Assembly (NCBI GenBank): GCA_018648405.1
Contig: JABGRF010000241.1
Span: 1-35,310, forward strand
Source of the DNA: Candidatus Scalindua sp.
GTDB taxonomy: Bacteria; Planctomycetota; Brocadiia; Brocadiales; Scalinduaceae
Direction of reading: 5' to 3'
Length of the DNA stretch: 35,310 nt
Part shown: in pieces, positions 3,735 through 15,492 of the stretch
Position numbering within the stretch: position 1 is the first letter of the stretch
Layout of the letters: every line of letters begins with the position of its first letter
Translations under genes and position numbers: made by a program
The notes under the pieces: generated by a model
Database searches by the model: none
What the model was told of the DNA's origin: nothing
What the model saw: only the letters and a program-made list of their open reading frames with translations

Positions 3735-5306
3735 TTAGTGTTCTTCACCAAAACAAGGATGATCGCCGTGATCACATGCATCTTCGACTATATCACCCTC
3801 TGTCCTCTTATAACCAGTAAGAAGATCAGTATACTCACCATGCTTCCAGAAATCGAAAGCCTTATGCTCTATACCAACCTCTTTTTCAAGAGTAGAAATT
3901 CTTCTTAACTTTGAAGCTTCATCCTTGATCTGGATAAGATGTCTGTCCATTGGGAACGCACCTGCATTGTAAGAAACGTCATCAATTGCGAAATGCGCTG
4001 CTGATTTGTATACAGCAGTTACCTGGTAAACAATCATCTCAACTGCAAGTCTTTCAATGTTTGATACATTGTAGAATCTTGGAGCACCACCTGGTAGTAA
4101 ATTCATCGTGTGACCACCAGTGTAGTCAGGTGCAAGGTCAGCCGGCATTGGATCAAACAAGCCTTCAAGATATAACCCAACAATAACGCCAACTGCTTCA
4201 CGCCATTTAGTGAAACTGACGTTAATCTGCTCATCCATACCATACATTTGCTCTGCAGCAAATCTAGGTGAGTGACAACCCTGACATTTCTTTATCCATG
4301 CATCCCTCTTAGCTTTATGCTGAGGTGCACCTCTGTCGAGCAGAAACATACCCATATGTGCATAATCAGTTGCCATATGCTGTACGTTGTGATTACCATC
4401 TTCACCTATATGACAGTACGCACATGTAGGAGTACGGTAATTCTTAGGAGTCATCTTCTTATCCCAATCCCAAGTATCACCTTCCATCATATAAATCTTA
4501 CCATGAAAAGAGTTGTACCAGAACTCATATTCAGCATGGTCTACACCCATGTGACATACACCACATGTATCTGGCTTTCTTGCTTCTGATGGTTTGAACT
4601 GATGCCTTGTATGACATCCGTCACATCTGTTTCCAGCAATACCATGACATTGAGCACAACTAGCAACTTCTTCCGCAGGTTTTCCAATTTGCCAAGCAAA
4701 TTCGGTAACTGATATATCCCAAATTGTGTGAGAGCCATGCGAACCCTGCCCACCAGCAAGATGTTCACTTTTTTCCTTTGCATGACACTTACCACAAGTG
4801 GTGACGCTAGGCATTATCAATTCCTGATGGTTGTTACCATGACATGCATCACATCCTACTACCTGTTCCGCATCCATCGAAGCTGTCTTTCCACCTTTTG
4901 AGTGCTGACTCAGTTTCCAGTCTACTACTATTCGTGGCGTCTGGATTGAATGACATAGAACACACTCTTCAGGCTTAAATACTCCCTCAACCTTTTGTGT
5001 TGATACATAGTAATCATCTGGATTATAGTACAATGCTGTTATAGGTAAGTAATTAAATATGTTTTTGAACTTACCCTCACCCGGAAATGTTCTATCTGGA
5101 CCAGTGTATCTAGCTGTCAAACCAAAGACATACATTGTTCCGTCATCATCATCTCCAACAGCCTGTCCATAAATTGATGATGCTACATCCTGAAACGTTG
5201 GTGCTGCATCATCAGCACTTGCATTTTTGCAGAAATTCATCGGCAAAAGAGCACAACCGGCAATGATTGCCAGCATCAACAAACAACCTTTTATTGATCG
5301 TATCAT
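3735..5306 (-). CDS. Octahaem hydroxylamine oxidoreductase-family protein
   Basis: A 523-residue exported multihaem protein of the HAO family, enzymes that oxidise hydroxylamine or hydrazine or, in some anammox paralogues, reduce nitrite. A signal peptide occupies residues 1-31 (cleavage near NASA/DD). Eight CXXCH motifs start at about residues 115, 152, 171, 217, 228, 248, 296 and 341. By position the fourth (CAQCH) would be the catalytic P460-type haem. The C-terminal helical part (360-480) normally supplies the Tyr that cross-links this haem. Here the segment SNIERLAVEM appears to have Ala where I would expect Tyr, so a reductive (nitrite-reducing) paralogue is possible. This is inference without an alignment. 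It has its own promoter, a long leader and a terminator, and lies between the hzs and trp/bc genes. I cannot assign the exact substrate. Confidence 0.92.
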   Translation of the reverse strand: MIRSIKGCLLMLAIIAGCALLPMNFCKNASADDAAPTFQDVASSIYGQAVGDDDDGTMYVFGLTARYTGPDRTFPGEGKFKNIFNYLPITALYYNPDDYYVSTQKVEGVFKPEECVLCHSIQTPRIVVDWKLSQHSKGGKTASMDAEQVVGCDACHGNNHQELIMPSVTTCGKCHAKEKSEHLAGGQGSHGSHTIWDISVTEFAWQIGKPAEEVASCAQCHGIAGNRCDGCHTRHQFKPSEARKPDTCGVCHMGVDHAEYEFWYNSFHGKIYMMEGDTWDWDKKMTPKNYRTPTCAYCHIGEDGNHNVQHMATDYAHMGMFLLDRGAPQHKAKRDAWIKKCQGCHSPRFAAEQMYGMDEQINVSFTKWREAVGVIVGLYLEGLFDPMPADLAPDYTGGHTMNLLPGGAPRFYNVSNIERLAVEMIVYQVTAVYKSAAHFAIDDVSYNAGAFPMDRHLIQIKDEASKLRRISTLEKEVGIEHKAFDFWKHGEYTDLLTGYKRTEGDIVEDACDHGDHPCFGEEH

Positions 5307-5634: not shown

Positions 5635-5678
5635 GCTCGAAAACGAGCATTTTTTAAGAATCTGAAACTAGATTCTTA
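5635..5678 (-). repeat. Two small hairpins at the hzsA 3' end
   Basis: A 9-bp perfect inverted repeat (TAAGAATCT and its complement, arms 5655-5663 and 5670-5678) includes the hzsA stop codon in its stem. A 5-bp GCTCG/CGAGC hairpin at 5635-5648 follows it. Neither has a U-tract on the minus strand. They may be 3'-end stabilising structures ahead of the true terminator. Confidence 0.5.
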
Positions 5679-8096
5679 TCTGCCACGATATCCTGGGTAT
5701 GGGTCAGGACCTTGAATGTTGTCCCATTGTGCGCCCAAATCTACCCACTCAACAAATAAGTATCTTTCTTCTGGTGTTAGCATGTTGTTATGCATAACCC
5801 TACCACCAACAGGTATAGGATTATTCCTTGCTGCGAACTGTGAAAGTTCTTCTTCATAAAGTCTCCAGATAAGAAGACTGTTTATTGCAGCACTTGGATT
5901 AACATACTTACCACCTATATTTGTGTCTCTACCCCTCTGAGGAGCTAAGAGACTGTTGTATGACTGACTGAATGCTGCAACGCCACCAACAGAAACCAAG
6001 CTTGTACTACCACTCAGATTAGGAGCCTGTGTAGAACTATGACAAGAAGCACATTTAGCATCTAAGATTGGCTGAATGTCTCTTCTGAAATCAACAGTTC
6101 TCAACTTGTCAATATTCAAACCTTCAACTGCTGCTGAAGTTGTACCTGAAGAACCACCATAATAAACATCATTAGGTACAACAACGTCATCACCATGTTT
6201 CACACCAGCATAATTACCATTCTTGTCAACTCTTAAGTTAGCCCACATAAATGGAGAATCATAATGGCTCAAATCACTGAACCACCAGTTGTAAAGCGCT
6301 TTTGTGTGAATGTTCAGATAACCCTTCTTATCATAAGAACCCCAGTGACAACCTGTACAAATCCTACCACCATATGGCCTTACATATGCCCATGATAGCT
6401 GAGTCTGTACTGCCATACCTTTGTCATCCAGAATCTGAGTGCAATATGCTTCATCACCTGGATGTGAACTTACAACAGAACCATCATCTTCTACATACTG
6501 ATAACCGAACATACGTCTCTGAGAGTAAGATGTTCCAGAGTTAGAACTTGACTTAGCACCACCAAGAAGGTGTGCACCAGCACCCTGAAGATATCTTTTA
6601 GAATCCGTCTCATTCGGCAGTACAGCATTTAGTACTCTGATAGCCTTGATGTCACCATGACCAACTTCTTTTGCCCTCTGATGTGCATAAGGACCAATTG
6701 GAAGATTTGTCAATGTTGTATCAAAGCATATTGTTGTACTCCATGAGTGAGGATATCCTTCAACTTTAACCTGGTCAAACGGCTGATAGGTTACAGTTGT
6801 TACACCAAACTCTGCTCCTGCTGTAAACGAGTTTATCCATCTTGGTTTGTAACGTGGATAAACAGGCTGAGGCTGATGATCATTCCATTCCGGATCATCG
6901 TATACCACTTCAGAAACAGTGCCCTTATCAGCACAGAAGTAGTAAAGACCAAAATCCTGTCTTTCAGCAGAAGACACCATTAGACGACCGTCTGGCAATG
7001 GATGAGGACTTCTATAAAGTCTTCCATCATTGCTCAACCTGGACTGTGTCTTAGCATGAGGAGTAGTCCAACTAACTCTTGCAAGATTACCTATGCCTGA
7101 GTTGTTGTCTAATGCCTCAATGTAATACACATATCCATCTGAAGCCTCTCTTGCCTGAATCTTAGGCGCATCTGGCTGCTCAGAAACCTCATTACCATAG
7201 ATATGCCTAGGATAAGAACCGTCCCAGTTATCTACAAGCAGGCATGTACTGCCGTTAGAGTTGTTATGAGTACCATTAGCTTGAGTACTACTGAACATGA
7301 TATTTCCGTCACGTGTGAGTGTTGGGTCAAAATTAGAACTTACATTGTAAGTAATCTTGTCCATAACAGTATCAACGTTAGGCATATCAAGTCCTACAAG
7401 CAAATGACCACAGATTCTATCCATTGACTTTCCACCCTGAGGGTCAAGTCTATAGATGTCAAAGTTGTAGTCTCTACCAAACTCATCCATTGAATTGTCA
7501 GGTGAATAAGCAAGCATCAAGAAACCCATCTTAGGAACTGTGCCACGAGGAGCCCAGTCACCTTCAAAATATCTAGCTCTTGATATAACTCTACCTTCAC
7601 CTTCTTCAATAGCACCAGCCGCATAGTAGATAGGACTTCTTGATGTACCAGGAGCATCAGTTAACTGCCTGACGCCTGTACCATCAATATTAACTTCCCA
7701 TATCTGACAACCACCACCATTTTTGTGAACACCTGCAAATGCAACCTTTGAACAATCCCAGTTAAGACAAGGATCAAAAGCACTCTGGAAGTCATTTGTT
7801 AGGACTTTCAGGCTTCTTGTCTTCGTGTTGTATGATACAATCCTGCTATCATTAGAAACATAATTTGGGTATTGATGATATGGATCGCCAGCAGTTGTAG
7901 GCTTTGACTGTGTGAACACAACAGTATCAACCTCTCCCTGAATCTCTTTTGCCATACCCCAGTAGTCGCCCCAAATAGCCTTACCAGGCTTAGCTCCACC
8001 TGTCATGACTTGAGCCTGGCAGTCTGCACTGCTAAAGAGCCCCCATATAGCAACAACACCAACCAGGGCAATTGACTTCAATAATCCCTTCTTCAT
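5676..8096 (-). CDS. hzsA: Hydrazine synthase alpha subunit
   Basis: Catalytic subunit of hydrazine synthase, which makes hydrazine from NO and ammonium in the anammoxosome. The 806 residues comprise a signal peptide (1-28), a propeller domain rich in TolB/PD40-like blades (about 60-450), a middle haem domain and a C-terminal cytochrome domain. The first haem motif is CTGCH (580-584) followed four residues later by Tyr588. In the Kuenenia structure, as I recall, the active-site haem alpha-I is ligated by a Tyr at exactly this spacing while the motif His binds zinc. The second motif is CASCH (682-686), and H769 in GGRVMHN is a candidate distal ligand. Length is close to the Kuenenia subunit. 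AGGAG lies 11 nt before the ATG. It is the last gene of the operon, 122 bp after hzsBC. Confidence 0.96.
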   Translation of the reverse strand: MKKGLLKSIALVGVVAIWGLFSSADCQAQVMTGGAKPGKAIWGDYWGMAKEIQGEVDTVVFTQSKPTTAGDPYHQYPNYVSNDSRIVSYNTKTRSLKVLTNDFQSAFDPCLNWDCSKVAFAGVHKNGGGCQIWEVNIDGTGVRQLTDAPGTSRSPIYYAAGAIEEGEGRVISRARYFEGDWAPRGTVPKMGFLMLAYSPDNSMDEFGRDYNFDIYRLDPQGGKSMDRICGHLLVGLDMPNVDTVMDKITYNVSSNFDPTLTRDGNIMFSSTQANGTHNNSNGSTCLLVDNWDGSYPRHIYGNEVSEQPDAPKIQAREASDGYVYYIEALDNNSGIGNLARVSWTTPHAKTQSRLSNDGRLYRSPHPLPDGRLMVSSAERQDFGLYYFCADKGTVSEVVYDDPEWNDHQPQPVYPRYKPRWINSFTAGAEFGVTTVTYQPFDQVKVEGYPHSWSTTICFDTTLTNLPIGPYAHQRAKEVGHGDIKAIRVLNAVLPNETDSKRYLQGAGAHLLGGAKSSSNSGTSYSQRRMFGYQYVEDDGSVVSSHPGDEAYCTQILDDKGMAVQTQLSWAYVRPYGGRICTGCHWGSYDKKGYLNIHTKALYNWWFSDLSHYDSPFMWANLRVDKNGNYAGVKHGDDVVVPNDVYYGGSSGTTSAAVEGLNIDKLRTVDFRRDIQPILDAKCASCHSSTQAPNLSGSTSLVSVGGVAAFSQSYNSLLAPQRGRDTNIGGKYVNPSAAINSLLIWRLYEEELSQFAARNNPIPVGGRVMHNNMLTPEERYLFVEWVDLGAQWDNIQGPDPYPGYRGR

Positions 8097-8218: not shown

Positions 8219-10291
8219 TTATAAAGCCTTCATAAACTCAACAAGATCCTGCAGATCCTGATTATTCAGATTAGATGTAACACCATGCATATCTAATGTT
8301 GTGCAAGTGTTATCAATCGTATTCATCAAAGTCTGCGCACTACCATCATGGAAATACGTACCAGAAGCGTAGATATCTCTTAATGTTGGAGTATCAAACT
8401 CTTTTACAAGATCAAGTCCAATAATTGGCACATCATACTCTTCACTGTAAGGTCCAACTCCAGTTTCTAGAACTGTAGTGTTAAACACAGCTCCCGGTGT
8501 TGTCCTGAAACCATCTTTACCAACTCTTCCGGTTCCAACATCATGAGTCTGAGCGTCACTGAACAATGCTCTTGGATTTTTAGGATCACCAGGATGACAC
8601 TCAATGCAACCAACCTTTGGATCACTAAATACTTTCCATCCTCTTTTCTGAGCTTCAGTCAATGAACCATCTTCTTCTCTGAAAGGACTTCCTGTAAACT
8701 CTAAAGATCTGATATAAGCAATCAAAGCCTCAAGTCTTTCAGGAGAGAAATTCTCACTTCTGAACACAAATCCAGGGTCACGACCACATACTCTGTCAAT
8801 CGAAGAAGCAGCTCCTACGATTTCATCAGGATGACCTGTGAATCCTTCATGCCTAAATGGAGGAAGGTATCTTCCACCTCTAATGTACTTAGTGTTCTTC
8901 CAGCTACCCCAACCTTCATCACCAAGGTCCCAGATCGTGCCTGTTGTCTGGCCTCTTTCATAGTGGCAACTTGCGCATGAATACTCACCCTGCAGTGTCC
9001 ATGATGCTTCGTTAAACAAAAACTGTCCATATCTCACCAATTCACTCTTATAAGGTGAGTGCTTTGCCCTGTAATGTACTTCAGGAACTGTAAGCGGCTC
9101 TCCTCTTTCGAGTGGCTCCCACTCAGGACCAGTCTGCATTGTTGCAATAACTGAAGGCTCATCACCTACCTGAATAAAAGACAAACTGTTTGAGAAATAG
9201 TTTGCAGTGTACATAGTCTTACCATCCGGTGAAAGAGCAACTGAACTAGGGCCTAGACCCACATTAACTCTTGCTACCAGATAATCAATCATCAATGTCA
9301 GGTCATTCTTCATGTCATCAAGCTCTTCTTGAGTGCTTGAAACAACGATGTCCAACAACTTTGGCAGATCAAGGATTGTTATCCTGTGCATACTTCTAAC
9401 ACCAACAAAAGCATATTTTCCGTCAGGAGAAACAGTTACTCCGTATGGATTTCCATCATAATTGTTATGCTCATCTAAAGGCATACTTGCAACCTTACCG
9501 CCTCTTTTAGTCTCTACAACAGCGAGGTTGTTAGAGAATATCTGAGCATTTTCAGCTTCACAAACAGGAAGCCAGTTCTTTGGCTGTTCCATTGTGACAA
9601 GTACATATGCTCCATCAGGCGTGTACTCTACACCCCTCAGGTTACAACTCTGATAGATATTTCTGTGCTCAGTAACCCTACCAGTTGAAAGATCTACAAA
9701 ATCTACGCCTCTGTTGATCTTACCAGTTGTATCCAGGACAACTGCAGCAGATTTTCCATCAGGAGAAATTGCTATGTCCCTTGGACCATAATCAGTAGTT
9801 CTGATTTCGCCAATCTTGCTGTTCATTGCGGTGTCAATAATATCAACAGTGTTCCACATACTACCTGAACAACAAACATATGCCTTAGAACCGTCTTTAG
9901 ACAATTTAATACTACATGGCCAATCACCAACCTTTATTGTCTTTACAACAGCCTTATTGCCTACGTCAATGACTGACACGGTATCACTTTCAGCGTTACA
10001 AACGAACAAAGTGCGACCGTCCAATGTATAAACACTGGCTTCCGGCTGTACCTGTACAGGCACTTCACCAGTCACTTTTTTGGACCTAACATCAACAAAC
10101 GACACGCTGTGTCCCGACTGATTGCATAAAGCCAACTCGCTACCATCAGGCGAAACTGCTACGTGGAATGGGGATGGATGCTCAGTCCTTACCCTTGTGC
10201 CCTGTATAAAGCCAGCACCAGCACTTTGAACCAGCGCTAAGCTTAGCATTCCCGCACCCAGGAATCCCAATATCCAAGCCTTTTTCTTCAT
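8219..10291 (-). CDS. hzsBC: Hydrazine synthase fused beta-gamma subunit
   Basis: A 690-residue fusion of the non-catalytic beta propeller and the dihaem gamma subunit of hydrazine synthase. Gamma is thought to reduce NO to hydroxylamine, which passes to HzsA. A signal peptide covers residues 1-26. Residues about 35-380 carry YVTN-type propeller blades with recurring SPDG turns (VAVSPDG, IAISPDG, VTVSPDG, VALSPDG). Residues about 400-690 resemble MauG/bacterial cytochrome c peroxidase, with haem motifs CASCH (439-443) and CIECH (562-566) and the family signature TLRDI..GTYFHDGSAQTL (about 636-655). In Kuenenia these are two genes, whereas fusion is known from Scalindua. A strong TGGAGGTG site lies 5 nt before the ATG. 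It lies upstream of hzsA and downstream of the Cys-rich gene by 51 bp. Confidence 0.96.
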   Translation of the reverse strand: MKKKAWILGFLGAGMLSLALVQSAGAGFIQGTRVRTEHPSPFHVAVSPDGSELALCNQSGHSVSFVDVRSKKVTGEVPVQVQPEASVYTLDGRTLFVCNAESDTVSVIDVGNKAVVKTIKVGDWPCSIKLSKDGSKAYVCCSGSMWNTVDIIDTAMNSKIGEIRTTDYGPRDIAISPDGKSAAVVLDTTGKINRGVDFVDLSTGRVTEHRNIYQSCNLRGVEYTPDGAYVLVTMEQPKNWLPVCEAENAQIFSNNLAVVETKRGGKVASMPLDEHNNYDGNPYGVTVSPDGKYAFVGVRSMHRITILDLPKLLDIVVSSTQEELDDMKNDLTLMIDYLVARVNVGLGPSSVALSPDGKTMYTANYFSNSLSFIQVGDEPSVIATMQTGPEWEPLERGEPLTVPEVHYRAKHSPYKSELVRYGQFLFNEASWTLQGEYSCASCHYERGQTTGTIWDLGDEGWGSWKNTKYIRGGRYLPPFRHEGFTGHPDEIVGAASSIDRVCGRDPGFVFRSENFSPERLEALIAYIRSLEFTGSPFREEDGSLTEAQKRGWKVFSDPKVGCIECHPGDPKNPRALFSDAQTHDVGTGRVGKDGFRTTPGAVFNTTVLETGVGPYSEEYDVPIIGLDLVKEFDTPTLRDIYASGTYFHDGSAQTLMNTIDNTCTTLDMHGVTSNLNNQDLQDLVEFMKAL

Positions 10292-10342: not shown

Positions 10343-10921
10343 TTAAAAATCCGGTTCATGCGGACATGTTCCAGACATTTTACAAACAGTTACAAGTTCT
10401 TCGCCGCAATCCGAACACTTACCATTTGAAAGCAAATGCTCCGCATACTCCATTTTGTGATCAATCTCAAAACCTGCACCTGGTTCATCATACTCTTTAC
10501 CACATTTTTTGCAACCAAAATTAAGCTTCGCCCTAACTGCAGTACCTGTCAAATCGTCGTTGCATACTTCGCAAAACCCAATATTAAAGGCGTAGCAGGC
10601 TTTAGAATTCTCGCATTTATCATTAACGCAATTATATTTAGTCCTAATGCATGACCAAGATTTCACAACCTTATGCTTCGTAACTTCTTCACCCTCTTTA
10701 TGCTCCTTAGTATTCCAGATATATTTCAAGTTACCACATTCTGTCCAGGTAAATATCTCTTTACATTCTGTACACCAATTCAGCAACTCGTTAACTTTCA
10801 TTGGGCATGGTCCGCCCTTTTCAGCCTTGACGATACTAAACTGGCTACCCATGAGCGCAACCATACATACAAATACTCCCAAACATAAAACCCTACCGAA
10901 TCTTTTTTTCAATGTATTCAA
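10343..10921 (-). CDS. Exported Cys-rich protein of the hzs operon, unknown function
   Basis: I do not recognise a family. The protein has a signal peptide (about residues 1-33, ending IVKA/EKGG) and then about 160 residues with many Cys, mostly in CXXC pairs: CTEC, CEVC, CKKC, CSDC, plus CPMK, SCIRTKYNC and CVNDKC. None is followed by His in a haem motif, so zinc-ribbon or rubredoxin-like metal sites or disulfides are more likely than haem. I place the start at the TTG at 10921 because GGAGG lies 7 nt upstream. A TTG at 10939 also opens the frame but would put this ribosome-binding site inside the coding region. As first gene after the sigma54 promoter and directly before hzsBC, it could help assemble or metallate hydrazine synthase. 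That role is inferred from position only. Confidence 0.8.
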   Translation of the reverse strand: MNTLKKRFGRVLCLGVFVCMVALMGSQFSIVKAEKGGPCPMKVNELLNWCTECKEIFTWTECGNLKYIWNTKEHKEGEEVTKHKVVKSWSCIRTKYNCVNDKCENSKACYAFNIGFCEVCNDDLTGTAVRAKLNFGCKKCGKEYDEPGAGFEIDHKMEYAEHLLSNGKCSDCGEELVTVCKMSGTCPHEPDF

Positions 10922-10989
10922 GCCTTCGCCTCCTTTCAAATTTTCCTTGTTATTAATAACACTATTTAGTACGCAGAATATATATTTGG

Positions 10990-11005
10990 AGCATTCCGCG
11001 TGCCA
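10990..11005 (-). promoter_or_regulatory. Sigma54 (-24/-12) promoter of the hzs operon
   Basis: The minus strand reads TGGCACGCGGAATGCT. It matches the RpoN consensus TGGCACG-N4-TTGCW at all but one position and has the diagnostic GG-N10-GC spacing. The start would be near 10979, giving a ~57-nt leader to the TTG at 10921. The gene directly upstream encodes a sigma54-dependent activator. Confidence 0.88.
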
Positions 11006-11087
11006 TAATACTATATGTTTTTAATATATCCTGTAAACACCCAAAACAAAAAGCCTTAAATATGAATCCTTCATCATCATACAAATA

Positions 11088-11143
11088 GTCAGCAGAAAAG
11101 ATTTGGCTGAATTCTGCCAACTTCAACTTTCACACTGTCAGCA
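11088..11143. promoter_or_regulatory. Putative upstream activator site of the hzs operon
   Basis: TTGGCTGAATTCTGCCAA at 11103-11120 is an 18-bp dyad (16 of 18 positions symmetric) centred about 130 bp upstream of the predicted sigma54 start, the usual distance for an NtrC-type enhancer. Two direct copies of GTCAGCA (11088-11094 and 11137-11143) flank it, 49 bp apart. Binding by the adjacent regulator is inferred. Confidence 0.6.
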
Positions 11144-11182
11144 AACTACCAGAGCAATCCAAATATGTCAATTTATTTGTTG

Positions 11183-12571
11183 TTAATTTTGAGCATATTT
11201 CTCAAGCCGATATCTGAACGTCCCTCTGCTGAGACCCAGCAATTTAGCAGCCTTAGTTTTATTATTCTTGCTTTTTTTCAAAGCCTGCAAAACCAAGTGT
11301 TTTTCCAGCTCATCTATAGATATTCCTTCAGGTGGCAAATTAAAATTCACCATTTTATATGCATTGTCTTTTTCGCTTCGATAACCAGAAATTGATTCTC
11401 TTACTAAAGTAACAGGAAGATGATCCTCCGTCACCATGCTTCCTTTGCACAAGATCACAGCTCTTTCCATGCAGTTTCGTAATTCCCTTACGTTACCATC
11501 CCACCTGCTTGACACGAGCAGGTTTTCAACGTTCTTTGTCATTTTCAGCGACAACTTTCCCATTTTTTCAGAAAACTGCGCAACAAAGTTTCGTGCTAAC
11601 TGCAAAATATCCTCAGGTCTTTCCCTTAGAGGCGGTATTTTTATAGGAAATACATTTACTCTATAATACAAGTCTTCCCTAAATTGACCCTTCTTAACAT
11701 AATCCTCAAGGTTTTTATTACTGGCACAGATGATTCTAACGTCAACCTTTACCGTTTCAGATCCCCCAAGCCTCTCTAATTCCCGTGCTTCAATTAGTCT
11801 CAGCACTTTGGCCTGAACAATAGGATTCATCTCTGATATTTCATCGAGAAACAGCGTACCGCCATGGGCCATTTCAAAGCGACCCTTCTTGGATTTCTCT
11901 GCTCCTGTAAAGGCACCCTTTTCATAGCCGAATAACTCGCTTTCCAGCAGTGTCTCAGGCAAGGCAGCACAGTTAATCGAAACTAACGGCCCACCCTTCC
12001 TTAAACTATTGAAGTGGATTGCTCTCGCTACAAGCTCTTTCCCGGTGCCACTTTCTCCGTAAACAAACACGGTTGAATCCGTTCTGGAAACATCTCCAGC
12101 CAACAAAAGAACTTCCAATATCTTAGGAGAGTTACCTATAATGTTACCAAAATTATAATGCGACTCTAATTCCTTTCGAAGATATCGATTTTCCATTGCA
12201 AGAGATCTCATCTTCAGTGCTTTTTCCACTGCAACTGAAAGCGATTCACCCTCAAATGGCCTTACGATATAATCAAAGGCACCCTCTTTCATCGACTCCA
12301 CCGCAGTCTCAATGGAATCATCCCCGGTTACAACAATAACCGGCAACTCGGAATCCATTGATTTAATCTGCTTAAGGAATTCCAATCTGCCCATTTTCGG
12401 CACTCTCAGATCAGTAATAATCAAGTGCAGTTTTTCGCGCTCAACAAAATCAACTATCGATGTCAGGTCTTGAGCCTTAACAACCTCGATATTATCCATC
12501 TTATCGAACATAACCTTGACGTTGCGTATTATTCGCTCTTCATCATCAGTTATCAACACCCTACTAACCAC
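11183..12571 (-). CDS. Sigma54-dependent response regulator (NtrC family)
   Basis: A 462-residue activator with three domains. The receiver (1-120) has acidic pocket D9/D10 and phospho-acceptor D54. The AAA+ domain (about 140-380) has Walker A GESGTGKE (172-179), the sigma54-contact loop GAFTGA (219-224) and Walker B LFLDEI (240-245). A Fis-type helix-turn-helix lies at the end ([19 protein letters not shown]). The receiver's normally invariant Lys before Pro is Arg here (R104 in YIVRPF), which may change phosphorylation kinetics. The start is GTG at 12571 with GAGGA about 9 nt upstream. It is 42 bp after the cytochrome b gene, so probably in that operon, and is followed by the sigma54 promoter of the hzs genes, its likely target. 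No cognate kinase is adjacent. Confidence 0.95.
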
Positions 12572-12613: not shown

Positions 12614-13522
12614 TCAAAAAGCAAATATACTAAATATATCAATATTGAGATCTTTGATTAAATCCATAAAGAGTGACGCAAGAGAGCATATCACAGATGA
12701 CAGCATAAATCCCACCATAAGCAAACCAATAGTAAGAAGAGGCACACCCATCATTCTGGATACAAATTTTGCCATTGGAGATGACGGTTTAACCCTTAAA
12801 CCCTCTAACTGACCCTCTTCCTTCATCCTCTCATAGTAAGCACCTCTTTCATGCTTTACATGAGCCTCATCAATCTTACCCGTAAACATCGCCTCATCGG
12901 TAGGCATATTCTCAGGCAGCATGTGTGTATGGAGGAAATGAATTGAAAAGATAAATCCTGCAGCTAACAATGCTTCGTATCTATGTGCAACCAGAGCGAT
13001 ACTTGGTAAATCAATGTAGCTTGCAACGCTGACGGGTACAAGCCTCGTGGCTTGCACTGGAAACCAAAGAATATAACCTGTAACCGCCATAACCAATGTT
13101 CCCCACATAAGCGACAGATATTCAAATTTTTCCCAATATATAAATCTTTCAAACTTTGGTCGTTTACCCAGCCTGAAAAACCACAAGATATCTCCTAGTA
13201 TGTGCAACACATCCTTCGGTTGTATCAATAGAGAATCGGGCCCCCAGAACATGCCCCTATCTTTCTTTATTAGAGACTCGTAGGCCAGATACGCAAAGTG
13301 CAAAAAGGCTGCTACAAAAGTGAGGAGCGCACAAAGCCTATGAATATTACCAGCGGCAGGATAGCCACCCATAGCACCATACAACCACTGACCCCAAGCA
13401 TAGTCCTTGAACACCAAAGGCATACCGGTTAACACTAACCCGAAAAAACTTATAATTGTGAAAGTATGGCCAAGTCGATGAAACTTGCCAAACCGTAGTA
13501 ATGTTGTAGTATTATCAGCCAT
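12614..13522 (-). CDS. Membrane dihaem cytochrome b of the hzs electron-transfer module
   Basis: A 302-residue integral membrane protein resembling the cytochrome b subunits of formate dehydrogenase, Ni/Fe hydrogenase and thiosulfate reductase, which exchange electrons with quinones. I see about five hydrophobic segments (about 20-37, 60-82, 140-155, 178-198 and 258-285). Candidate b-haem ligands are H15/H19, H61, H75, H180 and H195/H198/H200. It overlaps the upstream multihaem cytochrome gene by 8 bp, which implies translational coupling and a complex. In Kuenenia a cytochrome b and multihaem c pair at this place upstream of hydrazine synthase is proposed to deliver electrons from quinol for NO reduction. 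I apply that role here by synteny. Confidence 0.85.
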   Translation of the reverse strand: MADNTTTLLRFGKFHRLGHTFTIISFFGLVLTGMPLVFKDYAWGQWLYGAMGGYPAAGNIHRLCALLTFVAAFLHFAYLAYESLIKKDRGMFWGPDSLLIQPKDVLHILGDILWFFRLGKRPKFERFIYWEKFEYLSLMWGTLVMAVTGYILWFPVQATRLVPVSVASYIDLPSIALVAHRYEALLAAGFIFSIHFLHTHMLPENMPTDEAMFTGKIDEAHVKHERGAYYERMKEEGQLEGLRVKPSSPMAKFVSRMMGVPLLTIGLLMVGFMLSSVICSLASLFMDLIKDLNIDIFSIFAF

Positions 13523-14522
13523 GATCAGATTTATTCTCCTTTCGATCGTCTAATATTGAGCCCAGCCATGATAAAAGCATATGCGTACCGAACTGCGCAA
13601 ATGTTACCACCAAAAGGCCAACATACGCCACGAAAAGAACGGTTAATAATGTCTGCGGACTCTTTACGATACTCTTGATTTCCGCAGGATCTTTTCTGAT
13701 ATTTTTTAAAGCTATCAACGCCGATTTATAATAACCAACGTCTTTGTAAGCCGGATGCGCAACATGCTTAACAAAACTGTTGCCAGCGCCTGGATGACAC
13801 TTACCACAGGTTTCCTTCGCCTTTTCCGGACCTAATGTAGATTCAGGATCTGCTGAATTGAGAATAGTATGCTGCCCGTGACAATCGACACACGTCGCTA
13901 TATCCAAGCCTACATACCCCATTGCAGTAACCTGACCATGTAGATTATTACGATAAGAACGGTAGTATTTTTCATGACAACCTCCGCATTTTTCTATCGT
14001 ATCCCCTCTGTGCTCCAGGTTATCAGCCCGAGGTGTATTCATCTTAGATTTCTGTCCCGTGTGGCAATACTTACAAGTAGGTAGCTGTACACCTTTTTCC
14101 TGCATCAGGCTTGCATGACTACCTTCCAGGAATGTTGCGGCCGGATCATCGTGACAGAATGTTACACAATCTACCGGTTGTAAATTTGGATAGTGCTCTC
14201 CTTCAGAATCTTCCAGATCAGAATGACAATCGATACAGTAGAAGTCCTCACCACCGTGAGCAGATGCATGGTACTCTTCTTCATCCACAACCATTGTCAC
14301 AATCTCCACTTCGCCAGTGACATGGTCTACCCTGACCTTGGATGCTACCTCTGCCGGATCTGCATGACACTCCATACAGTCACTATTCTCTTGAGCAAAG
14401 AGGCTATTTGATGAAAAAGAAGAAATGAAAATAAGACATGAGATAAAGCATGAAATGATTACAAGCTTACATATTTTACTATCTTTAAATACTTCTGTCG
14501 TTGTTTTTGACAATGATACCAC
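13515..14522 (-). CDS. Membrane-anchored multihaem cytochrome c of the hzs electron-transfer module
   Basis: A 335-residue cytochrome with a signal sequence (about 18-43) and a C-terminal membrane helix (about 292-314), so the haem domain lies outside the membrane face and is anchored next to the cytochrome b. Canonical haem motifs are CMECH (49), CIDCH (96), CKYCH (150), CGGCH (179), CVDCH (211) and CGKCH (239). A seventh, CVTFCH (119-124), has three residues between the Cys. With that CX3CH site counted the protein would be heptahaem. The start is GTG at 14522 with GGAG 8 nt upstream. It overlaps the next gene by 8 bp. The likely role is passing electrons from the cytochrome b to hydrazine synthase or its carrier, inferred from context. 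Confidence 0.88.
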   Translation of the reverse strand: MVSLSKTTTEVFKDSKICKLVIISCFISCLIFISSFSSNSLFAQENSDCMECHADPAEVASKVRVDHVTGEVEIVTMVVDEEEYHASAHGGEDFYCIDCHSDLEDSEGEHYPNLQPVDCVTFCHDDPAATFLEGSHASLMQEKGVQLPTCKYCHTGQKSKMNTPRADNLEHRGDTIEKCGGCHEKYYRSYRNNLHGQVTAMGYVGLDIATCVDCHGQHTILNSADPESTLGPEKAKETCGKCHPGAGNSFVKHVAHPAYKDVGYYKSALIALKNIRKDPAEIKSIVKSPQTLLTVLFVAYVGLLVVTFAQFGTHMLLSWLGSILDDRKENKSDHG

Positions 14523-14751: not shown

Positions 14752-15492
14752 CTACTTAGCATTTGGAGGCTTTGTTTTGTACCATGGATCCAGCTCTACA
14801 TAGCCCTTCCATTTCTTTGCGTCCGGCTTAACATCATCAATGCCATCATGGTCCCTGTGATCGTCTCTCTTAATGTAATCCTTTGTAAAGAGCCTTTCTT
14901 GACCTTTGCTATTTTTCGTACCTTCACACTTAGGACACTTGTTTTTTGAACCTGCATCTTCCCAGTGGCAAGTAAGGCATTGTTTTTTTATCGTCTTGTA
15001 CTTATTTATGCCGGCTACTAATAGACCTGCGTCGTATTGAGCTTTTCTGGCAGCCATAGGATCTTTTTTCAACAACTTCTTAAATGCGTCTTTGCCCTTA
15101 CCACCAAGGTTCTTCTTAGCCTTTATATAACCCTCTCCAGGGCCATGGCATGCTTCACAACCAACGTTTTCAATAAAGTCCTTTGTACCCTGCTTGGACT
15201 TACCCTTCTTTATCTTCATGCCCAACGCTGTAGCATGACATTTTAAACACTCAGGATTACTCTTGTCTTCATCAGTTTTCAACCTGCTGAAAGTGTTATA
15301 ATGCTGATTCTTCATCTTCTTATATTCTTCACCTTCAAAACAGCCTTTAGACATATGGCACTTACAGCCACCATTACCCATATATTTCCACTTCTGCTTA
15401 CCGGCAAAACTCTGGCTACATTGAAAGACTACAAGCGACAATGATATAGCTACGAATGTCAAAACACATCTTCTTAAATTACGGCCAAACAT
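14752..15492 (-). CDS. Cytochrome c554-like tetrahaem protein with an unusual haem motif
   Basis: A 246-residue exported cytochrome (signal peptide about 1-31) of the c554 type, recognised from the N-terminal pattern of first haem site followed by a GEEYKKMKNQHYNTF stretch. Three canonical motifs are present: CLKCH (82-86), CEACH (112-116) and CLTCH (172-176). The first site is CKCH (43-46), with only one residue between the Cys. A later CPKC (186-189) lacks His. The rest is very Lys-rich, suggesting an acidic redox partner. It has its own sigma70-type promoter and lies upstream of the hzs regulatory and electron-transfer genes, so it may be a small carrier in hydrazine metabolism. This is inference. 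Confidence 0.85.
   Translation of the reverse strand: MFGRNLRRCVLTFVAISLSLVVFQCSQSFAGKQKWKYMGNGGCKCHMSKGCFEGEEYKKMKNQHYNTFSRLKTDEDKSNPECLKCHATALGMKIKKGKSKQGTKDFIENVGCEACHGPGEGYIKAKKNLGGKGKDAFKKLLKKDPMAARKAQYDAGLLVAGINKYKTIKKQCLTCHWEDAGSKNKCPKCEGTKNSKGQERLFTKDYIKRDDHRDHDGIDDVKPDAKKWKGYVELDPWYKTKPPNAK

Follow-up and report, generated by a model that had tools for sequence, protein, structure and literature searches.

Genes and predicted control elements of the hzs locus

We analysed a stretch of 35,310 nucleotides from Candidatus Scalindua sp. (the window), in which the hydrazine synthase genes lie on the minus strand behind a gene for an NtrC-family sigma54 activator. A gap of 244 bp separates the regulator gene from zn and is the site of the predicted promoter and dyads. 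The features are:

14752-15492, minus strand: c554
13515-14522, minus strand: c3
12614-13522, minus strand: cytb
11183-12571, minus strand: NtrC-family sigma54 activator gene (Pfam and residue table)
11136-11151, minus strand: weaker distal dyad TGGTAGTTTGCTGACA, a block conserved in the family alignment, containing GTCAGCA at 11137-11143
11104-11119, minus strand: UAS1, TGGCAG-AATT-CAGCCA, predicted proximal regulator site, the 16-bp conserved core of an 18-bp dyad
10990-11005, minus strand: predicted sigma54 (-24/-12) promoter TGGCACGCGGAATGCT of the operon zn-hzsBC-hzsA-hao, matching 11/12 of the consensus
10343-10939, minus strand: zn, secreted CxxC-rich protein (kuste2858 position), first gene of the operon (ORF)
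8219-10291, minus strand: hzsBC, fused hydrazine synthase beta-gamma subunits (ORF; propeller and cytochrome domains)
5676-8096, minus strand: hzsA, hydrazine synthase alpha subunit (Pfam HZS_alpha, E=3.6e-22)
3735-5306, minus strand: octahaem hao-like gene downstream of hzsA (Pfam Multi-haem_cyto; syntenic)

A preliminary description of this DNA had placed a sigma54 promoter directly before the hzs operon. The assignment to the operon stood, but the first gene behind the promoter is zn, and hzsBC, hzsA and the hao-like gene come after it. The window copy of zn, which has no Pfam match, probably starts with TTG at 10921, after AAAGGAGG, and zn is syntenic in every regulator-carrying locus whose contig extends to it. 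Some genomes carry it as a tandem duplicate (L074, L075, L076, L077). The loci compared below belong to the window's own family (f1, Scalindua-type; 14 genomes, with named records that include Candidatus Scalindua) and to a second and third family (f4/f5, Brocadiaceae-type and f5; 25 loci, including Brocadia, Jettenia, Kuenenia and Loosdrechtia). Within the limits of the contigs, the gene order c554-c3-cytb-regulator-zn-hzs is shared by all 14 genomes of the window's family.

Conservation of the sigma54 promoter and of the upstream dyads

Scanning both strands of the whole window, we found that TGGCACGCGGAATGCT, which carries the GG-N10-GC core noted earlier, is the top-scoring sigma54-type site. 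When the 244-bp gap was shuffled 5000 times, 61 of the shuffled sequences reached its score, 38 of these with a GG/GC core, so that the site by itself is only suggestive and the case for a promoter rests on conservation. The same promoter and dyad were sought at hzs in other anammox genomes. The sigma54 core is kept in 37 of the 39 regulator-carrying loci of the anammox families: 12 of 14 loci of the window's family have it in full at the aligned place, the exceptions being G012 (GC to GT at -12) and G015 (GG to GT at -24), and all 25 Brocadiaceae-type/f5 loci have GG-N10-GC, mostly as TGGTAY-N7-TGCT. Sites matching at least 10/12 were present in 12/14 Scalindua-type gaps versus 0.36 in shuffles and in 24/25 Brocadiaceae-type/f5 gaps versus 0.52, and the antisense strand of the same gaps contained none at this threshold. 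In the family alignment few parts of the gap are as well conserved as the -24/-12 blocks, the dyads and the ribosome-binding site. A housekeeping-type promoter could drive hzs instead, the sigma54 match being incidental, given that a weak sigma70-like site, TTTACA-16-TATAGT (10/12), lies at 11037-11010, just upstream of the sigma54 site. However, its hexamers, unlike the -24/-12 blocks, are not conserved in the family alignment, on which ground this site was rejected, and the count of promoter-like sites is within shuffle expectation, making a housekeeping promoter barely credible. The gene for sigma54, rpoN, is present in 58 of the order's 61 genomes and in every one of the 38 of good quality; a search of the window's own assembly (G000), which is 77.7% complete, did not find it.

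Upstream of the promoter, TTGGCTGAATTCTGCCAA at 11103-11120 (plus strand) is self-complementary at 16 of 18 positions, confirming the 18-bp dyad reported before; its conserved core is the 16-mer UAS1, 98 bp from the -24 element. A dyad is present in 39/39 regulator-carrying loci, at 93-99 bp from the promoter in 36 of 38 and at 94-98 bp in 13 loci of the window's family (the 93-bp case, G049, has a poor dyad with a better copy 124 bp away). The distance from the dyad to the stop codon of the regulator varies across loci from 15 to 218 bp, indicating that the dyad travels with the promoter. A symmetric dyad motif (TGGCTGATATCAGCCA), trained on Brocadiaceae-type and f5 loci only, placed the aligned dyad as the best site in every Scalindua-type gap except that of G009, where it was second-best, and gave UAS1 of the window a score of 21.3, the top of the gap (p = 1/301); training on one family and scanning the other located the aligned dyad, in most cases at p <= 0.01. 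The distal dyad TGGTAGTTTGCTGACA stands 32 bp from UAS1, a distance of about three helical turns (31-32 bp in most loci of the family), and its motif score is weak alone (p about 0.07). Two GTCAGCA repeats had been said to flank the dyad, and both are present (11088-11094 and 11137-11143), but they are not conserved as a pair: relatives lack the copy at 11088-11094 and the other is part of the distal dyad, and the pair was dropped as a functional repeat.

Alternatively, the dyad may serve the regulator gene as an intrinsic terminator hairpin and not be a binding site: a scan reports a hairpin of 5 pairs here with T-rich DNA behind it, and such DNA lies behind the dyad in most Scalindua-type loci. 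Yet 11 of 38 loci have C.A at pair 4, which shows that pairing is not kept, the hairpins are weak (-1 to -7.5 kcal/mol), the position is fixed to the promoter and not to the regulator's stop, and the T run is absent after the dyad in many Brocadiaceae-type loci. On the evidence of pairing, hairpin strength and position we rejected the terminator, which we regard as very improbable. Judged by conservation across the families, it is very likely that the hzs operon has a genuine sigma54 promoter and enhancer and that the adjacent regulator uses them.

The regulator, its targets and its input

Three loci, all that were complete enough to read, keep c554-c3-cytb-zn-hzs without a regulator between cytb and zn (G017, G018 (f2) and G019 (f3)). 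Their cytb-zn gaps contain neither a sigma54 site nor a dyad, and the three genomes do carry rpoN. A genome-wide search with a combined pattern (dyad, 88-112 bp, sigma54 core) gave a single match in the window's genome, at the hzs site, while the reversed control pattern gave 0 matches in 61 genomes; in relatives the matches were mostly at hzs, plus an amtB/glnK upstream set in the Scalindua-type family. The strict dyad TGGYTGNNNNCARCCA occurred at near chance frequency overall, and the window site is not a match to it; it was dropped as a genome-wide probe, the combined pattern being informative instead. Upstream of the c554 operon no sigma54 site of at least 10/12 was present in 16 loci, including the three genomes without the regulator. 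Conservation, co-absence in f2/f3 and the single genome-wide match all support the earlier view of a dedicated, RpoN-dependent switch, and we strongly predict that the hzs switch is of this kind. As a separate observation, glnK/amtB promoters of Scalindua-type genomes (L220, L221, L223, L224, L228, L229, L257, L260) have a sigma54 site with a similar dyad of the TGGCAGATATACGCCA type 99-102 bp upstream, which the hzs regulator or a paralogue may bind; the Brocadiaceae-type glnK promoters examined are without such an arrangement.

We propose that sigma54-RNA polymerase would transcribe zn-hzsBC-hzsA-hao from the -24/-12 site, that regulator dimers would bind UAS1 with the assistance of the weaker distal dyad, and that the regulator would form an AAA+ ring, touch sigma54 through GAFTGA across the ~98-bp loop and open the promoter using ATP. 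That the adjacent regulator drives the operon from the sigma54 promoter through the upstream dyads is highly probable; regulator binding, promoter activation and the start site are inferences from the conservation and co-occurrence of the elements.

By Pfam the regulator is composed of a receiver, an AAA+ domain and a Fis-type HTH (HTH_8), and its AAA+ domain carries Walker A/B, arginine fingers and GAFTGA at residues 219-224, in agreement with the NtrC-type activator with an intact GAFTGA loop originally described next to the promoter. The window receiver keeps the acidic pair D9 and D10, the phospho-acceptor D54 and the switch residue T82. The invariant beta5 lysine is Arg104 in the window regulator; among 13 Scalindua-type orthologues position 104 has R in 7, K in 5 and N in 1, and among 17 f4/f5 orthologues T in 8, A in 8 and K in 1. 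All 10 regulator-2 proteins (the regulators of the second hzs copy of relatives, described below) keep the lysine, and all 9 other paralogues from the same family of genomes keep both K and GAFTGA. GAFTSA or GAFTNA stands in place of GAFTGA in 11 of the 17 f4/f5 orthologues, and the window protein retains GAFTGA. Receiver identity is 66% for the hzs-adjacent regulator versus 79% for regulator 2 over the same genome pairs, AAA+ conservation being equal. In one genome, G016, the regulator gene is broken near the C-terminus by a frame change and a stop (L077:5908-6018), possibly an assembly error.

The preliminary description had called the switch two-component. In a classical arrangement of this type a kinase encoded elsewhere would phosphorylate Asp54, and this would be required for hzs transcription. 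The acidic pair and Asp54 are found in all orthologues and Thr/Ser82 likewise, and the lysine is retained in the 5 Scalindua-type orthologues and in G061; with Asp54, both acidic residues and the switch Thr intact, phospho-control through a distant kinase may still operate. Nevertheless, no kinase gene adjoins the hzs regulator in any of about 40 loci, the lysine is replaced by R, N, T or A in most orthologues while all control paralogues keep it, and the receiver has changed more quickly than its counterpart in the paralogue. Moreover, replacing the glycine of the NorR GAFTGA with Asn makes the protein fully constitutive and with Ser partly so, most other changes being inactive (PMC2941729), and such changes, which partly or fully free NorR from its regulatory domain (PMC2941729), are those of the GAFTSA/GAFTNA orthologues. 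We consider a classical two-component switch unlikely for this copy, and the data argue for an atypical regulator input. Our preferred reading is that the input is probably not a classical kinase-receiver one, the receiver being atypical or its phospho-control largely lost, so that hzs expression would be set by the amount of regulator or by another ligand; this step is less certain than the rest of the mechanism.

A predicted second hzs circuit in relatives and comparison with known systems

Brocadiaceae-type genomes carry a second hzsCBA block, 99.7-100% identical to the first over about 4.8-4.95 kb. The identity stops no more than about 30 bp from the first start codon, and the upstream regions are unrelated. 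The paired blocks lie at L101/L102, L103/L104, L105/L106, L109/L110, L113/L114 and L115/L116, where the two copies are 99.9-100% identical; as a side reading, near-identical pairs under two regulators may reflect concerted evolution or recent copying. The regulator of copy 2 is of the sigma54 type, about 41% identical to the first, with a canonical receiver and GAFTGA, and a HAMP-PAS-HisKA-HATPase kinase is encoded directly upstream of it. Copy 2 has a sigma54 site in its promoter, some 200-340 bp ahead of the gene, together with a dyad that differs from that of the first copy, TGACCA-N4-TGGTCA, often present twice about 80 bp apart. Several Scalindua-type genomes share this arrangement; the window's own genome, which is incomplete, yielded no second copy. 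The Kuenenia-type G048 has a second hzs copy with a TGACCA-type dyad and a sigma54 site, its regulator and kinase being encoded elsewhere. G033 and G045 have a lone hzsC that carries a sigma54 site and is preceded by one more paralogous pair of kinase and regulator; at L199 (5406-6640) and L201 (5501-6773) a lone hzsC follows a kinase-regulator pair and a sigma54 site of its own, apart from the two hzs operons. A copy-2-type regulator also precedes short unknown genes, not hzs, in G005 (L205, 7163-9150 and 11320-12942), where the arrangement occurs twice with a TGACCA-type dyad and a sigma54 site.

Anammox bacteria may run near-identical hzs blocks from two sigma54 circuits, one an old operon with an orphan activator that is losing phospho-control and would give high basal expression, and one in which a kinase-regulator pair would drive an identical copy in a signal-dependent manner. 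We hold this reading with evenly balanced confidence; it rests on loss of the receiver lysine and on the constitutive-type GAFTGA variants, with the identity of the copies attributed to gene conversion or recent copying.

In Scalindua the hzs genes rank with the most highly transcribed ones (PMC3655542), and duplicated hzs operons have so far been explained as gene dosage (PMC5854607). In the open-licence papers searched the control of hzs genes is not explained, and we found there no description of the hzs promoter, the enhancer, the altered receiver or the second circuit; the regulator itself was known by annotation. Hydrazine synthase is the defining enzyme of anammox, one of the main routes by which nitrogen leaves oceans and wastewater. 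Since the layout is kept in nearly 40 anammox genomes, a testable control circuit of hzs can be named, with promoter, enhancer and activator, and genomes with or without this control can be predicted. Duplicated hzs operons are seen to stand behind different regulators.

The NtrC/glnAp2 system has a sigma54 promoter with an upstream enhancer pair. Like it, the hzs locus combines a -24/-12 promoter with two dyads about 32 bp apart, about 100-160 bp upstream, and an AAA+ activator with GAFTGA and a Fis-type HTH, whereas hzs differs from it in the dyad sequence, in having no adjacent NtrB-like kinase, in a receiver without the invariant lysine and in its target, hydrazine synthase. The laboratory NorR bypass variants (G266) affect the same GAFTGA position as the naturally occurring Brocadiaceae-type GAFTSA/GAFTNA orthologues, although NorR has a GAF sensor domain where these carry a receiver (PMC2941729). 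Kuenenia kuste2854-2861 has the same gene order: cytochrome genes are followed by kuste2857, already annotated as a sigma54 response regulator, then kuste2858 and hzs (PMC6423088, PMC12053348). Beyond this annotation we found in these two papers nothing on a promoter, a binding site, receiver or GAFTGA changes or the second circuit; one of them describes the regulator as lowered together with hzs on hydrazine exposure (PMC12053348).
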